DNA of 64,000 nt from Lysobacter sp. S4-A87 (GTDB lineage Bacteria; Pseudomonadota; Gammaproteobacteria; Xanthomonadales; Xanthomonadaceae): positions 1,550,001 through 1,614,000 of the forward strand of contig NZ_CP093341.1 of assembly GCF_022637455.1 (NCBI RefSeq), in the 5' to 3' direction. Under the pieces are notes generated by a model. The model was given only the letters and a program-made list of their open reading frames with translations, searched no databases and was not told where the DNA came from. Below are positions 11,087-47,906 of this stretch, one piece after another. Both the position numbers and the translations under genes were made by a program. Numbering within the stretch: position 1 is the first letter of the stretch; each line of letters starts with the position of its first letter.

Positions 11087-13168
<2,082 letters not shown>

Positions 13169-33171: not shown

Positions 33172-33259
33172 CGGGTCCGACTTTGCCGTTTTTGGCGTCG
33201 CTTTTGACTCCATCGGCCAAGTCGTTCCGGAACACCGACCCGCTTGATTGGAGAGAGAG

Positions 33260-36200
33260 ATGACACCCAAGACCACCCCGCTCCGCGACGCGATCGTTTT
33301 CGCGCTCGCAGTGGGCACCACCGCAGCCGCCGGCACCGGCGTTGCGATGGCGCAGGAAGAGCAGCAGGCAACCAACCTCGACCGCATCGAAGTCACCGGC
33401 TCGCGCATCCGCCAGGTTGATATCGAGACCGAGGCACCGGTGCTGACCATCACCCGCGCCGACATCGAAAAGCAGGGCTTCCAGTCGGTCGCCGACATCC
33501 TGCAGAACATTTCGGCAGTGGGCGCACCGGCCATCAGCCGCGCCGCTCCGCTGACCGCGGGCGAGAACGTCGGCGGCCAGTTCATCAGCATGCGCAACCT
33601 GGGTGCCGCCCGCACCCTGATCCTCGTCAACGGCAAGCGCCTGGGCATCAGCACCAGCGGCCTGCAGGACGTGTCGCTGATCCCGACCGTTGCGGTCGAG
33701 CGCATCGAAGTGCTGAAGGACGGCGCCTCGTCGATCTACGGCTCCGACGCGATCGCCGGCGTGGTGAACATCATCACCCGCTCGAACTTCGAAGGCGCCA
33801 CCGCCAACGCCTACTACGGCCAGTACAGCGAAGGCGACGGCGAGACCACCCGCGCCGACTTCATCATGGGCTTCACCGGTGAACGCGGCTCGCTGACCGC
33901 CGCCGTGGAATACCGCAAGGAAGAGGAAGTCTTCGCCAAGGACCGCCCGTACAGCGCGTTCGGCCAGAGCGATCGCCACCCGACCCGCAACTGGACCACC
34001 GTCAGTCAGTGGGGCGTGATCAACCTGCCCGCCACGATCGGCGGCGGCACCACGGCGTTGACGGCTTACCAGAACAATCGCGTGCTGAACGACGGTGGCG
34101 ACTGGCGCAGCCTGGGCAACTTCCACATCCAGAACTGCGACGTCGGCGCCGTTGGCGCATCCGTCCCCGCTGCCTGCCGCGCCACCGCCGGCGCCGGCTC
34201 GGTCACCGACAAGACCAACACCAACCAGCAGACGCACCTGCGCACGCCGCTGGAAAGCCGTGCGCTGTTCGTCAACGGCCTGTTCGACATCACCGAAGAC
34301 ATCCGTTTCCGCGGCGACATGCTGTACTCGAACCGTGATGCCGAGCGCCAGGTCGCCGGCTATCCGTTCCAGAGCACGGCGGCCGGCCCGATCCCGGGCG
34401 GCTTCAAGATGTCGAAGGACAGCTACTACAACCCGATCGGCAGCCACCATGGCTTCGCCACGCCGCAGGATGTGGGCTTCTGGCGCCGCACCTGGGAAGT
34501 GCCGCGCGTCGACAGCCCGTCGTCGACCACCTGGCGCTTCGCCGCCGCGGTGGAAGGCAGCTTCGACGTCGCCGAGCGAATCTTCGACTGGGACGTCAAC
34601 TACCTCTACAACAACAACAAGGTCCACCAGGAAAACTACGGCAACCTCAACGTTGACCGCGCCAAGCAGGCGACCGGCGCGTCGTTCGTCGACAGCAACG
34701 GCCAGGTGGTCTGCGGCACGCCGGACAACCCGGCCACCGCGACCGTCAATGAGCGCAACGTCATTCCGGGCTGCGTGCCGTGGAATCCGTTCATCCCCTA
34801 CGGCCGCACCGGCGACGGCGGTCTCACCGGCAACCAGGCGCTGCAGGACTGGCTGTTCCAGCGCCTGAACTCCAGCGGCGAAACCGAAACCACGGTGTAC
34901 AGCGCCAACCTCAGCGGCTCGATTGCAACCCTGCCGGGCGGCGACCTGGGCATGGCGGTGGGTTACGAAAACCGCAAGGAATCGGGTCGCTTCATTCCCG
35001 ACGCGCAGGCGGTGACCGGCAACTCCACCACCCTCGCAGGTGGTCCGACCCAGGGCCGTTACACGGTCGACGAAGTCTATGCCGAGCTGCTCATCCCGGT
35101 GCTGGCCGACATGACCATGGCGAAGGAGCTGAGCTTCAGCCTCGCCAGCCGTTACTCGGATTACGACACCTTCGGCGACACGGTCAACAGCAAGTTTGGC
35201 TTCAAGTGGAAGCCGATCGACTCGCTGCTGTTCCGCGGCACCTGGGCTGAAGGCTTCCGCGCTCCGACGATCAACGACCTGTTCGGCGGCGGCTCGCAGA
35301 CGTTCTCGTTCTTCACCGACCCGTGCGACACCAGCTTCGGCGCTTCGCGCACCAACCCGGCGGTGCGGGCCAACTGTGCCCGCGACATCACCAACGCCAA
35401 CACGTTCCGTCAGCTTGGCCAGGGCTTCCAGCCGGCCGGTTCGGGCAACTCGCAGACGCCGGTGGCGTTCTTCTCGGGTTCCAATCCGAACCTGATTCCG
35501 GAGACCTCGGAGTCCAAGACGCTCGGCACGGTGTGGAGCCCGGGCTTCATCGAAGGCCTGAACGTCAGCCTGGACTGGTGGACGATCCGCATCGACGACA
35601 CGATCGTTGCCGACTCGCCGACGCAGATGCTCAACGACTGCTACATCCAGAACGATCCGACGCGTTGCGTGGACTTCACGCGTGACCCGACGCTGGGCTA
35701 CGTCAACAACCTCACCTTCACCGGCATCAACGCCGGTTACCGTGAGGCTGAAGGCTACGACCTCGACCTGGGCTACCGCCTGCCGACCGACACCTTCGGC
35801 AACTTCAACCTGTCGTGGCAGACGACGTACACCGTCAAGGACGAGATCAAGACCGACACCAACCCGGCGACTCCGCCGCAGCAGCTGGTCGGCTACGCAA
35901 CGTCGCCTGGCTTCACGGGCACGTTCCGCATCCGCTCCAACGCCACGCTGAGCTGGGACATGGGCGCGTGGGGCATCAGCTGGGGTGCGCGTTACTACTC
36001 CGGCCAGAAGGAAACCTGCCTGTCGCTCACGATCTTCCCGGACGAGTGCGACAACCCGGACTTCGCCGTTGCCAACCCGAGCCCGGCACAGGCTCGCGCG
36101 ATCAACGAGCTGGGTTCCAACACCTTCCACGACCTCGAGTTCCGCTGGCAGGCTCCGTGGAATGCCACTGTCGCCATCGGCGCCAACAACGTTTTCGATC

Positions 36201-36304
36201 ATGTTGGCCCGGTGCTCTACAGCCAGCCGAGCGCGAACGTGTCCTACCAGGGCCAGTTCGACATCGGTCGTTTCATGTACATGAAGTACCAGCAGCGCTT
36301 CTGA
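33260..36304 (+). CDS. TonB-dependent receptor, twin 1
   Basis: This 1014-residue outer-membrane transporter starts at ATG 33260, behind GGAGAGAGAG. The leader [20 protein letters not shown] is almost the same as in twin 2. [16 protein letters not shown] is the TonB-box region. The plug has [10 protein letters not shown] and [20 protein letters not shown]. The large barrel contains paired cysteines (CDTSFG...[24 protein letters not shown]), likely surface-loop disulfides. The C-terminus ends in Phe (MKYQQRF). The substrate is unknown; receptors of this size class usually import oligosaccharides, peptides or large chelates. Confidence 0.95.
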
Positions 36305-36729: not shown

Positions 36730-36816
36730 CGGCCCGACCTTGCCGGATTTGGCGTCTTTTTTGACTCCACCCGCTCGGTTCCCATGGGAAACCCCAAGAC
36801 ACGCTTGGAGAGAGAG

Positions 36817-39702
36817 ATGACCTTGAAGACCACCCAGCTCCGTGACGCGATTACCTTCGCGCTCGCTGTGGGCACCACCGCTCTTGCAGGCACCGGCGCA
36901 GCAGTTGCCCAGGATGCTCCGCAGGAAGCGACCACCCTTGACCGTATCGAAGTGACCGGTTCGCGAATCAAGCGCACCGACATCGAGACCTCGCAGCCGA
37001 TCTTCTCGCTGAGCCGTGACGACATCCAGGCCCAGGGCCTGACCTCGGTCGGTGACGTGATCCAGAACCTGACGGCCAACGGTTCCACGCTCAACACCAG
37101 CTTCAACAACGGCGGCAACGGCGAAACCCGCGTCAGCCTGCGCAACCTCGGCTCGAACCGCACCCTGGTGCTGGTCAACGGCCGTCGTTGGGTCGGTGGT
37201 ACCGGCCTCGGCGGCGCGGTCGACCTCAACACGATCCCGACCGCAGCAGTCGAGCGCATTGAAGTCCTGAAGGACGGCGCCTCGACGATCTACGGTTCCG
37301 ATGCCATCTCCGGCGTCGTCAACGTGATCCTGCGCCAGAACTTCGAAGGCGCCGAAGCCAACGCTTACCTCGGCCAGTTCGACAAGGGCGACGGTTCGCG
37401 CCAGGCCTATGACTTCACCATCGGCACCAGCAGCGATCGCTTCCAGGCGATGCTGGGTGTTGGCTACGTGAAGGAAGAGCCGGTCATGGCCGGCGACCGC
37501 GAGATCTCCAAGGAGCCGGTGTTCGGTTCGCGTCCGGGTACCCGCGGCAGCCTGGCCAACGTTCCGGCCAACGTCGCGATCTTCGACGGCAGCTCGTTCA
37601 ACAATCCGGACGGCGACTACGGCATCTTCGTGCCGGACGCGTCGGCACCCAATGGCTGGCGCCCGTTCGCTGGTCTGCCGGACCAGTACAACTTCGCACC
37701 GGCCAACTACCTGCTGACCCCGCAGGAGCGTTACTCGGTGTTCGGTAATGCCAGCCTCGACATCACCGACGACATCCGCTTCAAGACGACGGTGACGTAC
37801 AACTCCCGCCGTTCGACCCAGCTGCTTGCCGCCACCCCGCTGGTCATCGACGCCTCCTCGGGCGACGCTGGCTTCATCAGCGCCGACAGCATCTACAACC
37901 CGTTCGGCCAGGACATCAACGAAGTCTTCCGCCGCATGACGGAGACCGGTGGTCGCATCTTCGACCAGGACGTCCGTACCGTCGTGTTCGATGGCGCCTT
38001 CGAAGGCACCCTGACCCTCAACGAGAAGCCGTACGACTGGGAAGCCGGTTACTTCTACGGTGAGAACAAGGCCAACAACACCACCAACGGCCTGTTCCAG
38101 ACCAGCCACGTGCTCAATGCCGCCGGTCCGTCGTTCGTCGACGCCCAGGGCGTTGCACGCTGCGGCGCGCCGGGTGCGGTCATCGACGGCTGCGTGCCGA
38201 TCAACCTGCTCGGAGCGGAAGGCTCGGTCACCCAGGACATGCTGGACTACAGCACGTTCGTGGCACACGACGAGCTGTTCTATAAGCAGAAGACCTACTA
38301 CGCCAACATCGGCGGCGAAGTGTTCGACATGCCGGCCGGCGCGCTGGCCTTCTCGTTCGGTATGGAACACCGCACCGAGTTCGGCTACGACTCCCCGGAT
38401 GCGCTGATCAACTCCGGCGACACCAGCGGCAACGCCCGTACCGCAACCCGCGGTGGCTACTCGCTCGACGAGGCCTACCTCGAGTTGGCAATTCCGGTGC
38501 TGGCCGACCTGCCGGGCGCCAAGCTGCTCGACTTCAGCCTGGCAACCCGTTACTCGGACTACTCGAACTTCGGTGACACGCTCAACAGCAAGTTCGGTTT
38601 CCGCTGGAAGCCGATCGACGACCTGATGGTGCGTGGTAACTGGTCCGAGGGCTTCCGCGCTCCGTCGATCAGCGAGCTGTTCACCGGCCAGGCCGACAGC
38701 TTCCCGGCCATCGCCGACCCCTGCGCCGGCTCGATCCAGGGCACGCCGAACCCGGGTATCCCGGCAGGCTGCGCAGGCATCCCGGCCTACAACCAGCCCA
38801 ACGGCCAGGTTCGCATCACCGTCGGCGGCAACCCGGACCTGGGTCCGGAGAAGTCGGAAACCGTCACCTTCGGTTTCGTCTACAGCCCGAGCTGGGCGGA
38901 AGGCCTGGACGTTTCGCTTGACTGGTGGCAGATCGAGATTGACGAAGCGATCTTCCTGCAGACGGGCCAGGCGATCCTGGACAACTGCTACCGCAGTGGC
39001 GTGGCCAGCGCGTGCGCGCTGATCTCGCGTACCCCGTCGGGCCAGATCGCCGACCTGCTGTCGGTGCCGACCAACATCGGCAAGATGGAGACCGAAGGCT
39101 TCGACATGACGGTCGGCTACCGCCTGCCGGAGACGTCGTGGGGCAAGTTCTCCTTCACGTGGGACACCACCTACGTGTCGAACCTGTACATCGACACCAA
39201 CGGCGACGGCCTGTACTCGGAAGATCCCATCTCGGGTGAAGCCGGCAACAACGTCGGCGAGTACTTCGGTGCCAGCTTCACCAACAACTGGCGCATCCGC
39301 TCCAACCTGCAGGCTCGTTGGGAAATGGGTGACTGGGGCGTGTCCTGGTTCGTCCGTTACTTCTCGCCGCAGGAAGAAATCTGCCTTGGCCCGAACGTTC
39401 CGGCCAACCAGCGCGCGCAGCTGTGCTCGGATCCGACCCGCCGCACCGCCCTGGACGGCAACGATCCTGGCCTGGCACCGGATGCCCCGGCCGCCCGTCC
39501 GCTCAACCGCATCCCGTCGGCGACGTACAACGACATGCAGGTCAGCTGGCAGGCTCCGTGGAATGCCAAGGTCTCGCTGGGTATCAACAACATCTTCGAC
39601 CGCGATCCGCCGGTGGCAATCACTGCGTTTGCCAACAGCTTCGATCCCGCGTACGACGTTCCGGGCCGCTTCTTCTACATGACGTACAACCAGAAGTTCT
39701 GA
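36817..39702 (+). CDS. TonB-dependent receptor, twin 2
   Basis: This 961-residue outer-membrane transporter starts at ATG 36817 behind GGAGAGAGAG. The signal region [20 protein letters not shown] is nearly identical to twin 1. [20 protein letters not shown] is the TonB-box region. The plug has LVLVNGRRW and [20 protein letters not shown]. The C-terminus is FFYMTYNQKF. The barrel has diverged from twin 1 much more than the leader and plug, so substrates probably differ. It has its own promoter and terminator and is followed by a 2OG-Fe(II) oxygenase gene. Confidence 0.95.
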   Translation: MTLKTTQLRDAITFALAVGTTALAGTGAAVAQDAPQEATTLDRIEVTGSRIKRTDIETSQPIFSLSRDDIQAQGLTSVGDVIQNLTANGSTLNTSFNNGGNGETRVSLRNLGSNRTLVLVNGRRWVGGTGLGGAVDLNTIPTAAVERIEVLKDGASTIYGSDAISGVVNVILRQNFEGAEANAYLGQFDKGDGSRQAYDFTIGTSSDRFQAMLGVGYVKEEPVMAGDREISKEPVFGSRPGTRGSLANVPANVAIFDGSSFNNPDGDYGIFVPDASAPNGWRPFAGLPDQYNFAPANYLLTPQERYSVFGNASLDITDDIRFKTTVTYNSRRSTQLLAATPLVIDASSGDAGFISADSIYNPFGQDINEVFRRMTETGGRIFDQDVRTVVFDGAFEGTLTLNEKPYDWEAGYFYGENKANNTTNGLFQTSHVLNAAGPSFVDAQGVARCGAPGAVIDGCVPINLLGAEGSVTQDMLDYSTFVAHDELFYKQKTYYANIGGEVFDMPAGALAFSFGMEHRTEFGYDSPDALINSGDTSGNARTATRGGYSLDEAYLELAIPVLADLPGAKLLDFSLATRYSDYSNFGDTLNSKFGFRWKPIDDLMVRGNWSEGFRAPSISELFTGQADSFPAIADPCAGSIQGTPNPGIPAGCAGIPAYNQPNGQVRITVGGNPDLGPEKSETVTFGFVYSPSWAEGLDVSLDWWQIEIDEAIFLQTGQAILDNCYRSGVASACALISRTPSGQIADLLSVPTNIGKMETEGFDMTVGYRLPETSWGKFSFTWDTTYVSNLYIDTNGDGLYSEDPISGEAGNNVGEYFGASFTNNWRIRSNLQARWEMGDWGVSWFVRYFSPQEEICLGPNVPANQRAQLCSDPTRRTALDGNDPGLAPDAPAARPLNRIPSATYNDMQVSWQAPWNAKVSLGINNIFDRDPPVAITAFANSFDPAYDVPGRFFYMTYNQKF

Positions 39703-42825: not shown

Positions 42826-44436
42826 TTACGGCTGCACGGCCCTTTCGGCAGGGATCGCGCCCGCCTCGGCCAGCCCGTCGAGCAAAGGCTGCAGGTGGGC
42901 CCGGTACGGCTTCCAGGCGGCGCCACGGTTGCCCAGGATGCCCTGGCGGACATGCGCCATGCTGGCCGTCGCGACCGCTCCGCTGTCGCGCTCGACCCGC
43001 AGCGCCGCGGCTTCGAAGGGCAGCCCGCAGAAATCGAAGATCTGCCGCGCGGTGGCCTCGGTGTCGTTGACCAGCCCGTCGTAGGACACATCGAGGATGC
43101 GCCCGGGCATGACCTGGCGCCAATGTTCCATCAGGTCCAGGTAGCGGCCGTAGTAGCGGGCCAGGTTGCGCTGGTCGAACGAGTACGGGGCGGCCTTGGA
43201 GAAGTAAGTACGCAGGTTCGAGAAGCACGTGTCCACCGGGTCGCGCACCATGTGGAGGATGCGCGCATTGGGCAGGGCCCTGGCGATGAAGCCGGTGTTC
43301 AACACGTTCAAGGGCAGCTTCTCGGTCAGGAACGGCTTGCCATGCGTGCGCCAGCGCGAGGCGTCGATGAAGCCGCGACCGATCGCATCGAAGTCGGCAT
43401 CGGCCAGTGCGTCGAGCGCGGCCTCGTCCAGTGCACCGCGGATGCCATGGTCGGCAGCGATGCGCAGTTGTGCCGTGAAGGCGTAGCTCTCGCCACCGTC
43501 CGCCACCTGGCTGTGTCCGCCGAGGATGCGTTCGAGGAGGGTGGTGCCGGAGCGATGCATGCCGACGATGAAGACTGGAACGTAGGCGTCTTCGCGCTGC
43601 ACCGGCGCGACGAACCCGGCGTTGCAGATCGCCTTGATGCGGGAGAACAGCGCTTCGGTGCGGCAGTCGTCGTACGGCTCGGCGTGGGCCTTGATCCGGC
43701 AGGCGTCCTCGAGCGCGACCCAGGCCGGGTCGAAGTCCTTCAGGTCATGCAGCTCGTTGTGCAGCGCGAAACCGGCGTAGGCCGCCGCTGGCGAGCCCGC
43801 CGGCAACTGCGCGAGCAACGCGCGCAGCCGGACGACGTGGTCCTCGCCGGGTTTCCATTTGCGCAGCAGAGACAGCAGCCAGTGCGCCTGCGCCAGCTGC
43901 GGTTGCAGCGCGATGCTGGCTTCGAATTCGACTTCGGCCTCGTCCGGTCGCCCCAGGAACATCTCGATCACGCCGCGCAGGTAGCGCGAGCGCGGCACCT
44001 GCGGCTCCAGCCGCAGGGAGCGATCCACCAGGTCCAGCGCCAGCGACTGGTCGCCGGGACCGGAGCTGACGATCTGGGCCATTTCCGCCAGCATCCGGCC
44101 ATCGGCGGATTCTGCGAAACCGCTGCGGCCGATCAGGTCTAGCAGGCGCTCGTACTCGTTGAACCGGGTGAGGGTCCGCGCCAGCTCGAGTACGACCGCG
44201 GGATGGTGGCTGGCGCTTTCCACCGCAAGCAGCGCGTGTCGCCGCGCGGCGCGGTAGTGGTCGAGCTGCAGCCGGATCGCCGCCAATCGCAGCTGCGCGG
44301 CCGTGTGGCGTGGATCCAGCGCCACCACCGTCTCGAATTCGCGTAGTGCCTGCTGCCAGTCGCCTTGCGTCAACGCCTGTTCGCCGCGATGGGCGGCGTG
44401 CCGGATGATGTCTATCTGGCGGGGGTCCAGCGTCAT
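42826..44436 (-). CDS. TPR-containing sulfotransferase
   Basis: This 536-residue protein has N-terminal tetratricopeptide repeats (QALTQGDWQQALREFETVVA and following) to about residue 210. A PAPS sulfotransferase domain follows. FIVGMHRSGTTLLERILGGH is the 5'-phosphosulfate loop and ILHMVRDPVDTCFSNLRTYF the 3'-phosphate segment. TPR-sulfotransferases are related to tyrosylprotein sulfotransferases and often act on peptides or proteins, but this substrate is unknown. The start overlaps the upstream gene by ATGA. A 17-bp direct duplication (CCTTACGGCTGCACGGC type, about 42808-42841) spans the stop. Confidence 0.93.
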   Translation of the reverse strand: MTLDPRQIDIIRHAAHRGEQALTQGDWQQALREFETVVALDPRHTAAQLRLAAIRLQLDHYRAARRHALLAVESASHHPAVVLELARTLTRFNEYERLLDLIGRSGFAESADGRMLAEMAQIVSSGPGDQSLALDLVDRSLRLEPQVPRSRYLRGVIEMFLGRPDEAEVEFEASIALQPQLAQAHWLLSLLRKWKPGEDHVVRLRALLAQLPAGSPAAAYAGFALHNELHDLKDFDPAWVALEDACRIKAHAEPYDDCRTEALFSRIKAICNAGFVAPVQREDAYVPVFIVGMHRSGTTLLERILGGHSQVADGGESYAFTAQLRIAADHGIRGALDEAALDALADADFDAIGRGFIDASRWRTHGKPFLTEKLPLNVLNTGFIARALPNARILHMVRDPVDTCFSNLRTYFSKAAPYSFDQRNLARYYGRYLDLMEHWRQVMPGRILDVSYDGLVNDTEATARQIFDFCGLPFEAAALRVERDSGAVATASMAHVRQGILGNRGAAWKPYRAHLQPLLDGLAEAGAIPAERAVQP

Positions 44437-45473
44437 GCCTGGCTCCAGCGCGCCGGGTCGAGTCGCGCCTGCGGCCGCATGGCCGGCAACAGCCAGCGCT
44501 CGGACCAGGCCAGCGCATTGGCCAGCTCGCGGGCGAAGTGCGCGACCACGATTTCCGCCTCGCTTGCCCGCTGCGCCGCCGAATAGGCCACGTCCATCGC
44601 CTTGGCATTGCGCCCGCCTATCCCTTCGCAGCGGTCGCGCAGGGCATGCTCGGGAATCTCGACTTGAAGCCAGCGCGCGCACTGCGTCATCGCATCTGCG
44701 AGGTCGTCGAGCAGCCAGCTCATGTCGATCGCGCGAACCCGTGCTCCGTCGTCCACCGCCACCAGGTCGGCCATGACTTCGCGCTGCGCGGCCCATTGCA
44801 GGGCGGCGGCACACAGCAGGTCCGGCGGTGCCAGCGCCTGCGGCGGCAGTCGCGATGCGAACGTGCCGATCGCCAGTGCCCGTTCCGCCAGTTGCGGGAT
44901 CCTGGATTGCGACTCCGGTGGCTTCTTCAGGTTGGAGACGAGGAAGTCCTGCAGCGACGAAGTCAGCACGACGGCGCGACTGCCGGGTGTCGCGGCGAGC
45001 ATGTCGGAGGCAAGGTTGAGCGCGGCGTGCGTGGGCTTGATGACCACCGCGCCGCCCGCATGCCAGGGGCGTGCAAGCAGTCCCACCGTAGTCTCGAGCA
45101 GGCCCTGCAGCGGCATCGCGCGGTGCCGGGCATCCGCGAGCCGCCGCAGTACCAGCGGTTCACGCAGGCAGACCGCGGCAGGCGGGCAATGCAGCGCGCG
45201 TGCAGCCAGGGTGGATCCGCAGAACGAGGTGTGGAACAACCAGGCCACGCGAGCGCTGGGCAGGTCGCGTTGACCACGTTGGTCGCGTTGAATCTGCGCC
45301 TGCCCCACCTGCACCGCGGCGGCGAGCGGCGCGTCGATGCGGGTGTCGAGGAAACTGGAGCGATCGATGACCGCGTCATCGAGTGCAACAAACGAGAACG
45401 TGCGCGACGGCACGTCCAGGTCCGTCGGGAACCAGCGCGCTTCGCCCAGCTCCTGGTCGGACGGTCCGGTCAT
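44433..45473 (-). CDS. Sulfotransferase-like P-loop protein
   Basis: This 346-residue protein has a P-loop-like segment WLFHTSFCGSTLAARALHC, which resembles the PAPS loop of sulfotransferases. AVVLTSSLQDFLVSNLKK lies where the 3'-phosphate site is expected. No other domain is recognised. It is between a 2OG hydroxylase (upstream, ATGA) and a TPR-sulfotransferase (downstream, ATGA). The tight coupling suggests the three form one pathway. I chose ATG 45473, since the upstream extension overlaps the hydroxylase gene. Confidence 0.72.
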   Translation of the reverse strand: MTGPSDQELGEARWFPTDLDVPSRTFSFVALDDAVIDRSSFLDTRIDAPLAAAVQVGQAQIQRDQRGQRDLPSARVAWLFHTSFCGSTLAARALHCPPAAVCLREPLVLRRLADARHRAMPLQGLLETTVGLLARPWHAGGAVVIKPTHAALNLASDMLAATPGSRAVVLTSSLQDFLVSNLKKPPESQSRIPQLAERALAIGTFASRLPPQALAPPDLLCAAALQWAAQREVMADLVAVDDGARVRAIDMSWLLDDLADAMTQCARWLQVEIPEHALRDRCEGIGGRNAKAMDVAYSAAQRASEAEIVVAHFARELANALAWSERWLLPAMRPQARLDPARWSQA

Positions 45474-46063
45474 GGCGCAGCGTGGGCTGCCGGGACGCGC
45501 TCGAACTTGATGGCGAAGGTGTAGCGCGGCGCGTAGCAGATGCGGTTCGGCGGCCGGCCGACGTGCTTGATCGCGCCATCGAAGATCACCAGCCGTCCGG
45601 GTCGCGGCTGGACGGCATGGGCGATGTCGTCGTGTGAATCGAAGAAGACCGTCTCGCCGCCCCATTCCAGGTCCCACTTCTCGCACAGGTACCACAGCGC
45701 GGTAAGGTCGTGCTGGTCGGGCAGGCAGTCGGTGTGGCTGAAGAGCATGTCACCGTAGCTGGCGACGTTGGTGTAGGCGCGATAGGGACGGTACGTGTAA
45801 CCCGGTGATTCGAAGGCCAGTACCGCGCGGCGGGTGACCTCGAAGATGGGCTGGCGGACCAGCCCATCGAGCTTCACTTCCGTGGCCCAGTGCAGGTACG
45901 CGGCCGTCTCCGGCCGCGCCATCTCGGTACGGGTGAAGGCCGCTCGCGACAACCCGGCCACATAGTCGCTGACGTTGGGCAGGTGCCCGTCGAACACCCG
46001 CAGCGGGCGGCCGTCGATCAGCAGTTCACGACTGGCCGCGAGCGCGGCGGGGTTGTCGGTCAT
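45470..46063 (-). CDS. 2OG-Fe(II) oxygenase, hydroxylase-like
   Basis: This 197-residue protein has the double-stranded beta-helix of the 2OG superfamily. The HxD is in GDMLFSHTDCLPD. The distal His is in FDGAIKHVGRPP, followed by ICYAPRYTFAIKFER with the 2OG-binding Arg. LEWGGETVFFDS is a characteristic strand of prolyl-hydroxylase-type members. The substrate is unknown. It is the first gene of the coupled set with two sulfotransferase-like proteins, and it starts 22 bases after the PEP carboxykinase stop, so read-through from that gene is possible. Confidence 0.85.
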   Translation of the reverse strand: MTDNPAALAASRELLIDGRPLRVFDGHLPNVSDYVAGLSRAAFTRTEMARPETAAYLHWATEVKLDGLVRQPIFEVTRRAVLAFESPGYTYRPYRAYTNVASYGDMLFSHTDCLPDQHDLTALWYLCEKWDLEWGGETVFFDSHDDIAHAVQPRPGRLVIFDGAIKHVGRPPNRICYAPRYTFAIKFERVPAAHAAP

Positions 46064-46085: not shown

Positions 46086-47906
46086 TCAGCGGGAAAGATC
46101 CCGGGCGATGCGCTGCTGCTCGTCCTTCAGTGCCTGCGGCATGCGCGGGCCGTACTCGTCGAGGTACTCGCCGATGCTGGCGAACTCGGCCTGCCAGCCG
46201 GCATGGTCGAAGCCGAACAGCTTGGCGCGTGCCTCATCGCCCAGCGCGATGCCGTCGAGGTTGAGATCGCCTTCGGCCGGCAGATGGCCGATGGGCGTCT
46301 GGACCGAACCGGCCTCGCCCTTCACGCGCTGGATCATCCACTCCAGCACGCGCAGGTTGTCGCCGAAGCCCGGCCACAGGAACTTGCCGTCGTCGCCCTT
46401 GCGGAACCAGTTGACGTGGAAGATCTTCGGCAGCTTCGCGCCGGCCTTGTCGAACGACAGCCAGTGGCTGAAGTAGTCGGCGAAGTTGTAGCCGCAGAAC
46501 GGCTTCATCGCCATCGGGTCGCGGCGCATCACGCCGACCGCGCCGGTGGCGGCGGCGGTGGTTTCCGAGCCCATCGCGGCACCGACCAGGACGCCGTGCG
46601 CCCAGTCGCGCGCTTCGAACACCAGCGGCACCAGCGAGGCGCGGCGACCGCCGAAGACAATGGCGCTGATCGGCACGCCGGCCGGGTTCTCGGCCTGCTG
46701 CGAATAGCTCGGGCACTGCCTGGCCGACACGGTGAAGCGCGAGTTCGGATGTGCGGCGGGACCCTTGGCGGCGTCATACGGATTGCCGCGCCAGTCGGTG
46801 ACCGGGACCTGGCCGTTGTCGAGGCCTTCCCACCACGGCTGGTTGTCGGCGGTGACGCCGACATTGGTGAAGATGGTGTCGTGCTGGATCGAAGCCAGCG
46901 CATTCGGGTTGGACTTGTCCGAGGTGCCAGGGGCGACGCCGAAGAAGCCCGCTTCCGGATTGATCGCATACAGGCGGCCGTCGGCACCCGGGCGCATCCA
47001 GCAGATGTCGTCGCCGACCGTCCACACCTTCCAGCCCTGGGCGCGGTAGCCCTCCGGCGGAATCAGCATGGCCAGGTTGGTCTTGCCGCAGGCCGACGGG
47101 AACGCCGCGGCCACGTAGTGGGTCTCGCCCTGCGGATTTTCCAGGCCGAGGATCAGCATGTGCTCGGCCAGCCAGCCTTCCGAACGGGCCTGATGCGAGG
47201 CGATGCGCAGGGCATGGCACTTCTTGCCAAGCAGCGCATTGCCGCCGTAGCCGGAGCCGAACGACTTGATCGTCAGTTCTTCCGGGAAATGCATGATGAA
47301 GCGGCGCTCGGGGTCGAGCTCACCGATCGAATGCAGGCCACGCACAAACTCGCCGTCATGGAGCCGGCCTTCGCGCTCGATGCGCGCCAGCGCCGGCGCG
47401 CCCATGCGGGTCATGATGCGCATGTTGGCGACCACGTACGGGCTGTCGGTGATCTCCACGCCACAACGCGACAGCGGCGAGTCGATCGGGCCCATGCAGT
47501 ACGGGATCACGTACATCGTGCGGCCCTGCATGCAACTGTCGAACAGGGCGTCCATCTGCTTGTGGCCGTCGGCCGGCGACATCCAGTGGTTGTTCGGGCC
47601 GGCGTCTTCCTGCTCGCTCGTGCACACGAAGGTGAGGTGCTCGACACGGGCGACGTCGTCCGGATGCGAGCGGTGCAGCCAGCTGTTCGGGTGGGTCTGT
47701 TCGTTGAGCTTGACCAGGGTGCCGTCGGCCTGCATCTGCTTGATCAGCGCGGCGTTCTCGGCATCGCTGCCGTCGCACCAGACGATCGCGTCCGGCTGGG
47801 TCAGTGCGGCGACCTGGGCGACCCAGGCGTTGAGTGCCGTCAGCTTGCTGCCTTCGCTCCCCGGCGCAATGGCAGGTTTCGAGACGTCATGGGAAATCGC
47901 ATTCAT
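46086..47906 (-). CDS. pckG: Phosphoenolpyruvate carboxykinase (GTP)
   Basis: It converts oxaloacetate and GTP to PEP, the first step of gluconeogenesis. It has 606 residues, as in the GTP-dependent family. The nucleotide P-loop is FPSACGKTNLAMLIPPEGY. The active site includes YCMGPIDSPLSRCGVEITDS, and GGNALLGKKCHALRIAS is the substrate segment. The start is ATG 47906 behind GGAGG; TTG 47912 is an alternative. It lies 31 bases after the TetR gene in the same direction and may share its regulation. Confidence 0.97.
   Translation of the reverse strand: MNAISHDVSKPAIAPGSEGSKLTALNAWVAQVAALTQPDAIVWCDGSDAENAALIKQMQADGTLVKLNEQTHPNSWLHRSHPDDVARVEHLTFVCTSEQEDAGPNNHWMSPADGHKQMDALFDSCMQGRTMYVIPYCMGPIDSPLSRCGVEITDSPYVVANMRIMTRMGAPALARIEREGRLHDGEFVRGLHSIGELDPERRFIMHFPEELTIKSFGSGYGGNALLGKKCHALRIASHQARSEGWLAEHMLILGLENPQGETHYVAAAFPSACGKTNLAMLIPPEGYRAQGWKVWTVGDDICWMRPGADGRLYAINPEAGFFGVAPGTSDKSNPNALASIQHDTIFTNVGVTADNQPWWEGLDNGQVPVTDWRGNPYDAAKGPAAHPNSRFTVSARQCPSYSQQAENPAGVPISAIVFGGRRASLVPLVFEARDWAHGVLVGAAMGSETTAAATGAVGVMRRDPMAMKPFCGYNFADYFSHWLSFDKAGAKLPKIFHVNWFRKGDDGKFLWPGFGDNLRVLEWMIQRVKGEAGSVQTPIGHLPAEGDLNLDGIALGDEARAKLFGFDHAGWQAEFASIGEYLDEYGPRMPQALKDEQQRIARDLSR

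Follow-up and report, generated by a model that had tools for sequence, protein, structure and literature searches.

What do an iron(II)/2-oxoglutarate (2OG) oxygenase, a protein of no recognised family and a sulfotransferase with tetratricopeptide repeats (TPR) do together when their genes overlap, and on which substrate do they act? Three such genes are found in the genome of Lysobacter sp. S4-A87 (3.89 Mb, single contig, NZ_CP093341.1), within the stretch of 64,000 nucleotides from 1,550,001 to 1,614,000 that is called the window here (window position equals genome position minus 1550000). A preliminary description of the window had proposed that hydroxylation creates an acceptor and sulfation follows. 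The best reading of our data, to which we assign a probability of roughly 40%, is a hydroxylation and sulfation module linked to outer-membrane receptors: the client would be a TonB-dependent receptor (TBDR) or another outer-membrane protein, and the middle protein would be an optional partner with an altered donor site.

Gene content of the locus

All three genes are on the minus strand: the oxygenase P0002 (197 aa) occupies positions 45470..46063, the middle protein (P0001, here called MID; 346 aa) 44433..45473 and the TPR-sulfotransferase P0003 (TPR-ST; 536 aa) 42826..44436, with a 4-base ATGA overlap at both joints (P0002/MID and MID/P0003). Coordinates and overlaps had been described exactly. 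The three frames are genes and not chance, because relatives of MID (E<=0.001) are present in 41 of 148 genomes (own genome included), close relatives are 36-66% identical and the order recurs: 2OG-MID-TPR-ST on one strand was called in 13 loci, one of them that of the window, and is seen at the level of frames in two more, L040 and L051. Among named species, MID occurs in Lysobacter prati and in Cognatilysobacter (Lysobacter) lacus. The three genes described as a unit are real, but the unit is larger: it also contains a second 2OG oxygenase, P0004 (39831..40493, plus strand; PF13759 by Pfam), and two receptors, TBDR2 (36817..39702) and TBDR1 (33260..36304), both on the plus strand, about 1000 aa long and with Plug and barrel. 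P0004 sits between the three-gene set and the receptors.

The identification of the first gene as a 2OG-Fe(II) hydroxylase holds. P0002 scores 46 bits against PF13640 (cut-off 27), its HxD...H motif is intact (H110, D112, H167) and this motif is kept in 27/27 called relatives (>200 bits). P0002 resembles the FlmC family of 2OG-Fe(II) oxygenases (NF052475) over nearly its full length (E 4.7e-38), and differs from it by a score, 131.1 bits, that is far below the curated 240 bits; a search of open-licence PubMed Central (PMC) listed no paper that describes FlmC as an oxygenase. Neither P0002 nor P0004 matched the YbiX-type (PKHD) model at E<=1. The predicted structure of P0002 is weak (pLDDT 63.5), and its matches to PasI (E 8.8e-4) and then PHD2 serve as supporting evidence only.

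P0003 had been recognised as a TPR-sulfotransferase related to tyrosylprotein sulfotransferases, and both assignments are confirmed: it matches PF13469 with 162.7 bits, matches TPR families in addition, and is similar in sequence to TPST1/2 (E about 1e-9 to 1e-10), enzymes that we compare together with RaxST and from which it differs by carrying TPRs. All five tested residues are present (R295, E316, K373, R398, S406). Among 36 TPR-STs, the R, E, K, R and S are kept in 36, 35, 35, 35 and 32, respectively, counted by alignment columns; these counts replace a strict motif regular expression that was passed by 9/36 only. The catalytic residues of TPST1 are R79, E100, K159 and S286 (PMC5562738), and we infer that K373 of P0003 corresponds to K159.

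Linkage to outer-membrane receptors

Relatives of the locus keep the block acyl-CoA dehydrogenase (ACAD)-TetR-PEP carboxykinase (PEPCK)-2OG-MID-TPR-ST, followed at some distance by PF13759-TBDR. In the variant loci L054-L056, a single strand carries TBDR-TBDR-TPR-ST-PF13759-MID, and 2OG-PEPCK converges on it. Relatives of MID in other families and classes have 2OG, TPR-ST or TBDR genes nearby, without PEPCK (L059, L138, L139, L141, L144 with a partial MID, L147 and L148) or with it (L078).

The linkage is also seen from the side of the TPR-ST. A TBDR or Oar-like gene directly adjoins the TPR-ST in 16 of 19 further loci (L167-L185; L186, which was fetched too, has no TPR-ST call and is uncounted), a fraction that is biased upwards because the TBDR link was noticed before these loci were chosen and because L179 continues the MID locus L141. 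Ten of these 16 neighbours are TBDRs confirmed by Pfam, L168 and L172 have barrel proteins with an Oar-like N-terminus, L170 has that N-terminus only, and L173, L179 and L180 have a TBDR by profile alone (825-994 bits). The remaining three loci are L175, with a TBDR one gene further, L167, with a YadA-type adhesin, and L178. In an unpicked count, at least 13 of 64 sulfotransferase matches (MID loci included) lie within 6 kb of a Plug domain, among 150 of 436 Plug matches listed; the expected number is 1.8 at the listed density and 5.3 at the full density.

The locus L167 belongs to the genome of the window itself: its TPR-ST (L167:9827-12589, minus strand) faces a trimeric autotransporter adhesin with YadA head and stalk and not a TBDR.

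A possible receptor-modifying module

In the module that we propose, the two Fe(II)/2OG oxygenases (PF13640 and PF13759) would hydroxylate a client and the TPR-ST would sulfate it from 3'-phosphoadenosine-5'-phosphosulfate (PAPS), with the TPR arm probably holding the client. The client would most simply be the partner TBDR, or else another outer-membrane protein, more likely than a free peptide, and the modification would take place in the cytoplasm, before export. MID would be an optional cassette between oxygenase and TPR-ST and a partner of the 2OG oxygenases. Protein clients are hinted at by oxygenases fused to TPR/Sel1 repeats (see below) and by the TPR-ST beside the YadA-type adhesin. 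If a bacterial outer-membrane receptor is indeed hydroxylated and sulfated, this would be a new kind of envelope modification; to our knowledge, there is no earlier case.

Several observations weigh against this proposal. In the window, the TPR-ST is several genes away from the TBDRs, with a sigma-70 gene, a 171-aa gene without family and a DUF4097 gene in between. One of the 19 TPR-ST loci, L178, has no adjoining outer-membrane gene, and the bias of the 16/19 has to be counted here too. Among the matches listed, no TPR-ST (E<=1e-60) stands beside the 2OG gene in 17 of the 38 genomes that have a close P0002; two of these 17 (G003 with locus L055 and G008 with L054) do have a more divergent TPR-ST next to it. 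By profiles, 17 of 57 MIDs have no adjacent 2OG gene, and Pfam analysis of 30 of their neighbours adds one TauD. The TBDR/2OG pair CciT/CciO of Caulobacter fits an action on cargo as well as protein modification, because the receptor CciT is still made without CciO and its authors discuss cargo-related roles (PMC12004947). Finally, the modified protein or metabolite is so far a predicted one.

The serious rival is that the enzymes make, finish or break down a metallophore-like small molecule that the two TBDRs import, with the receptors linked to the enzymes via their cargo and not as substrates. We regard this as possible though somewhat unlikely. CciT/CciO, PiuA/PiuC and YbiX pairs are discussed in ligand terms (PMC12004947), methanobactin operons pair the sulfotransferase MbnS with the transporter MbnT (PMC3621798) and some MID paralogues lie beside YbiX/PKHD-type oxygenases, all of which is consistent with cargo tailoring. 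However, there is no evident ligand-making core among the ten flanking genes between 29.0 and 51.4 kb, the range that was scanned; TPR-STs also adjoin Oar-like barrels and one YadA adhesin; and the oxygenases fused to TPR or Sel1 repeats point to proteins as clients.

MID is an accessory gene

Close relatives of MID (E<1e-40) are present in 20 of the 148 genomes and close relatives of P0002 (E<1e-50) in 38: 18 genomes have both, two have MID only (G078 and G123), 20 have P0002 only and 108 have neither (Fisher p 7.5e-11, kinship uncorrected). The co-conservation of the three genes that had been expected holds only in part: the 2OG gene is present in 18 of the 20 genomes that carry a close MID, but 20 of the 38 2OG genomes lack a close MID and six loci have 2OG and TPR-ST genes without it.

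Loci with and without MID were compared in 21 of the 38 genomes, those for which the TPR-ST matches listed (E<=1e-60) include one next to the 2OG gene. The gap between the two genes has the size of MID (1036-1092 bp) in 12/21 genomes and is larger and holds MID in 2/21 (G030 and G031); MID lies upstream in 1/21 (G029), and 6/21 have a gap of only 20-47 bp and no close MID. All six MID-less loci have the arrangement ACAD-TetR-PEPCK-2OG-TPR-ST facing PF13759 and at least one TBDR, and tblastn found no remnant of MID in them (no alignment >60 aa at E<=1e-5). Because these six loci keep the layout, 2OG, TPR-ST, PF13759 and TBDR are the core of the Lysobacteraceae-type locus and MID a cassette. Versions of the locus with and without MID exist naturally in close relatives, G006 of the same genus among them, which makes the role of each enzyme testable.

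One contig binned as a Cupriavidus metagenome-assembled genome (L037) carries a Lysobacteraceae-type PEPCK-2OG-MID-TPR-ST-sigma block, possibly a binning error.

MID has a predicted sulfotransferase fold and lacks two donor-side arginines

Searches of Pfam and NCBIfam up to E 1 gave no match for MID, in agreement with the preliminary description, which had assigned it to no family. An AlphaFold2 model built from four sequences (pLDDT 81.9, pTM 0.82) gave six Foldseek matches in the PDB at E<=1e-3, all of them sulfotransferases; the best is human TPST1 (5wrj_C; E 8.7e-5, probability 1.00), with a TM-score of only 0.41. A profile of 14 MID relatives matched a mycobacterial sulfotransferase (2zq5, E 3.3e-5), and alignment of the MID and TPR-ST profiles with hhalign (E 1.5e-6, probability 90) paired F84, E105, K146, S172 and S180 of MID with R295, E316, K373, R398 and S406 of P0003, respectively. 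A check of the middle protein for a PAPS-binding fold, suggested at the outset, thus returned a predicted sulfotransferase fold. Its designation as a P-loop sulfotransferase-like protein stands as far as profile match and fold are concerned, but the P-loop motif is non-canonical: the first motif is HxxxC[GC]ST (HTSFCGSTL in the window) versus RSGTT-type in canonical sulfotransferases.

Residues were counted in 57 MIDs scoring >=250 bits, which are not independent because many are close kin of the same genus. They come from 55 of 75 loci scanned; nine further loci have Arg-type relatives and 11 lack a MID call that reaches 250 bits (L049, L051, L057, L142, L144, L152, L154, L158, L159, L164 and L165). 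H81, S87, E105, K146 and K291 are each present in 57/57 MIDs, and position 183 is Lys/Arg in 55/57. Position 84 is Phe in 34 (among them the window), His in 21 and Tyr in two; position 180 is Ser in 33 (the window included), Thr in 15, Ala in eight and Gly in one. At position 172, where the window has Ser, none of the 57 has Arg. Three residues are generally essential in sulfotransferases (PMC6637879): the first motif needs a positively charged one, the second needs a Ser, and a base has to lie between the two motifs; the positive residue of the 5'-phosphosulfate-binding (5'-PSB) motif is Arg-11 in RaxST and R79 in TPST1 (PMC5562738, PMC6637879). MID has the predicted fold, the catalytic Glu, the catalytic Lys and, in the window, the Ser of the 3'-phosphate-binding (3'-PB) motif, and lacks the 5'-PSB Arg and the 3'-PB Arg; it differs in these arginines from TPST1/2, its best fold matches. 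Both donor-side arginines (equivalents of positions 84 and 172) are kept in 9/9 Arg-type relatives and gone in 57/57 MIDs, and a tree separates the two groups (FastTree support 0.93).

Judged from these alignments, MID retains the predicted catalytic pair while the two donor contacts are gone together; where position 84 is His (21 MIDs), this residue could be a partial stand-in for Arg. With both Arg contacts of the Arg-type relatives missing from MID, the idea that the locus encodes two consecutive PAPS enzymes, each functional and canonical, is not supported. MID is, by prediction, a sulfotransferase-fold protein with a changed donor pocket and probably still an enzyme. We tentatively suggest, as an unlikely account of the whole, that MID is a branch of the fold that has lost the two-arginine grip on PAPS, has kept the catalytic Glu and Lys and acts as dedicated partner of Fe/2OG oxygenases in the receptor-modifying module, using a different donor or a rebuilt PAPS site or transferring onto a hydroxyl made by its neighbour. 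Should MID use no canonical PAPS site, a large enzyme fold would gain a new branch.

It is likewise doubtful that MID is non-catalytic, a sulfotransferase-fold scaffold or activator of the oxygenase. The loss of both PAPS-side arginines in all MIDs, the existence of loci that do without the protein and its frequent pairing with 2OG oxygenases are compatible with such a role, but an invariant set of Glu, Lys, P-loop Ser, His81 and Lys291 is unusual for a pure scaffold.

Viral relatives or a phage origin of MID were considered and rejected: 71 viral stretches fit a pattern and tblastn confirmed none of them, and a search of phages at E 1e-5 gave nothing.

MID and its neighbouring oxygenases

An Fe/2OG oxygenase directly adjoins 40 of the 57 MID genes, a count that is descriptive only because most seeds of the search came from the MID neighbours themselves (the representative oxygenases used as seeds were confirmed by Pfam or NCBIfam). 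The types are diverse: FlmC-like, PF13759, YbiX/PKHD, other PF13640, Sel1-fused and AspH. The background of PF13640 is low, with 1-10 matches per genome (16 genomes), a lower bound because the search missed a gene of 45.8 bits in L060. A contrast between 40/57 MIDs and 1/9 Arg-type relatives (Fisher p 0.0013) at first indicated that the oxygenase link is special to non-Arg MIDs; it was withdrawn, as Pfam finds AspH in 4 of 18 Arg-type neighbours, which had been overlooked because the oxygenase seeds came largely from non-Arg neighbours. The 2OG link is a property of the wider group, Arg-type relatives included.

The genome of the window has two more MID paralogues, both of the His84 type, L061 (near 2372500) and L060 (near 3162300). 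One of them is convergent with an oxygenase gene of the YbiX/PiuC type; the other converges on a PF13640 oxygenase that has a PALP/CBS gene and a gene of Cys/Met metabolism next to it. In L066, the neighbour of a MID paralogue matches the PKHD-type YbiX model.

In several MID loci, TPR/Sel1 repeats are fused to PF13759, PF13640 and AspH oxygenases, mirroring the architecture of the TPR-ST (L138:15621-17468, L139:9148-10467, L139:11213-12598 and L141:7115-8437, all on the minus strand).

Two Arg-type loci look like clusters of lasso or RiPP type (ribosomally synthesised and post-translationally modified peptides): L160:5800-12326 has, by Pfam, AspH, PqqD, an HPr-kinase-like gene (below cut-off), a second sulfotransferase and Asn_synthase, as well as a 63-aa candidate for the precursor, chosen by eye (12135-12326, minus strand), and L155:4553-9850 has a similar cluster, assigned partly by eye.

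Search for a peptide precursor

A modified small peptide encoded nearby had been suggested, with a conserved small gene as the check. For the gaps of 31.9-49.2 kb, we compared 16 frames of 18-130 aa with 22 relatives and found no convincing conserved small gene in these gaps: eight of the 16 frames are conserved, all of them before TBDR1, TBDR2, PF13759 or ACAD, and these eight are more simply explained as leader or promoter DNA. The two TBDR genes have a leader element in common, TTGGCGTCnnTTTTGACTCCA, with copies at 33192..33212 (genome 1583192-1583212) and 36749..36769 (genome 1586749-1586769), both on the plus strand and 48-68 bases before the two TBDR starts; the genome has no third copy at up to 2 mismatches. 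Translated frames over the DNA of this element match relatives, and an Rfam search of 30-50 kb, the element included, gave no match at gathering score.

A small peptide that is hydroxylated and then sulfated, as in RaxX/RaxST or a RiPP, could have its precursor encoded elsewhere. The TPR-ST is TPST-like, and Arg-type relatives of MID cluster with Asn_synthase, PqqD, the HPr-kinase-like gene (below cut-off), AspH and the 63-aa candidate of L160. Still, the gap frames yielded leader- or promoter-like DNA and no precursor, PqqD is absent from the ten flanking genes scanned, and we consider a peptide client improbable.

Flanking genes

The usual neighbour of the 2OG gene is PEPCK (46086..47906, minus strand; PF00821), which is useful as a position anchor and probably not a functional part of the module. 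By Pfam, the ten flanking genes are PEPCK, TetR, ACAD, sigma-70, DUF4097, Hsp33, a transglycosylase, a glycosyltransferase and two without family. That the locus is a stable chromosomal block of genes that do not work together is very improbable: PEPCK, TetR and ACAD do travel along without evident relation, but MID, 2OG, TPR-ST and TBDR recur in other orders, families and classes, mostly without PEPCK.

Comparison with known systems

No published description of this module was found in open-licence PMC, judged from titles and abstract openings; its parts are of known kinds; what looks new is their combination and the branch formed by MID. With TPST1/2 and RaxST the comparison ends at the enzymes: no convincing precursor peptide gene lies beside P0003/MID in the gaps tested. 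Methanobactin operons are alike in that they hold a sulfotransferase, MbnS, together with a TonB-dependent transporter, MbnT (PMC3621798); they differ in that 2OG oxygenases belong to the set described here. The closest parallel in receptor linkage is given by CciT-CciO, PiuA-PiuC and YbiX, pairs present across Proteobacteria in which a cytoplasmic Fe(II)/2OG oxygenase is genetically linked with a TBDR (PMC12004947), and some MID paralogues are likewise found beside a YbiX-type gene. In the Lysobacter locus, the oxygenases P0002 and P0004 are of the PF13640/FlmC-like and PF13759 types and sulfotransferases join the set. The function of CciT strictly requires CciO (PMC12004947): such TBDR/2OG pairs work together, by a chemistry that the source leaves open, and to these pairs the module adds sulfotransferases.

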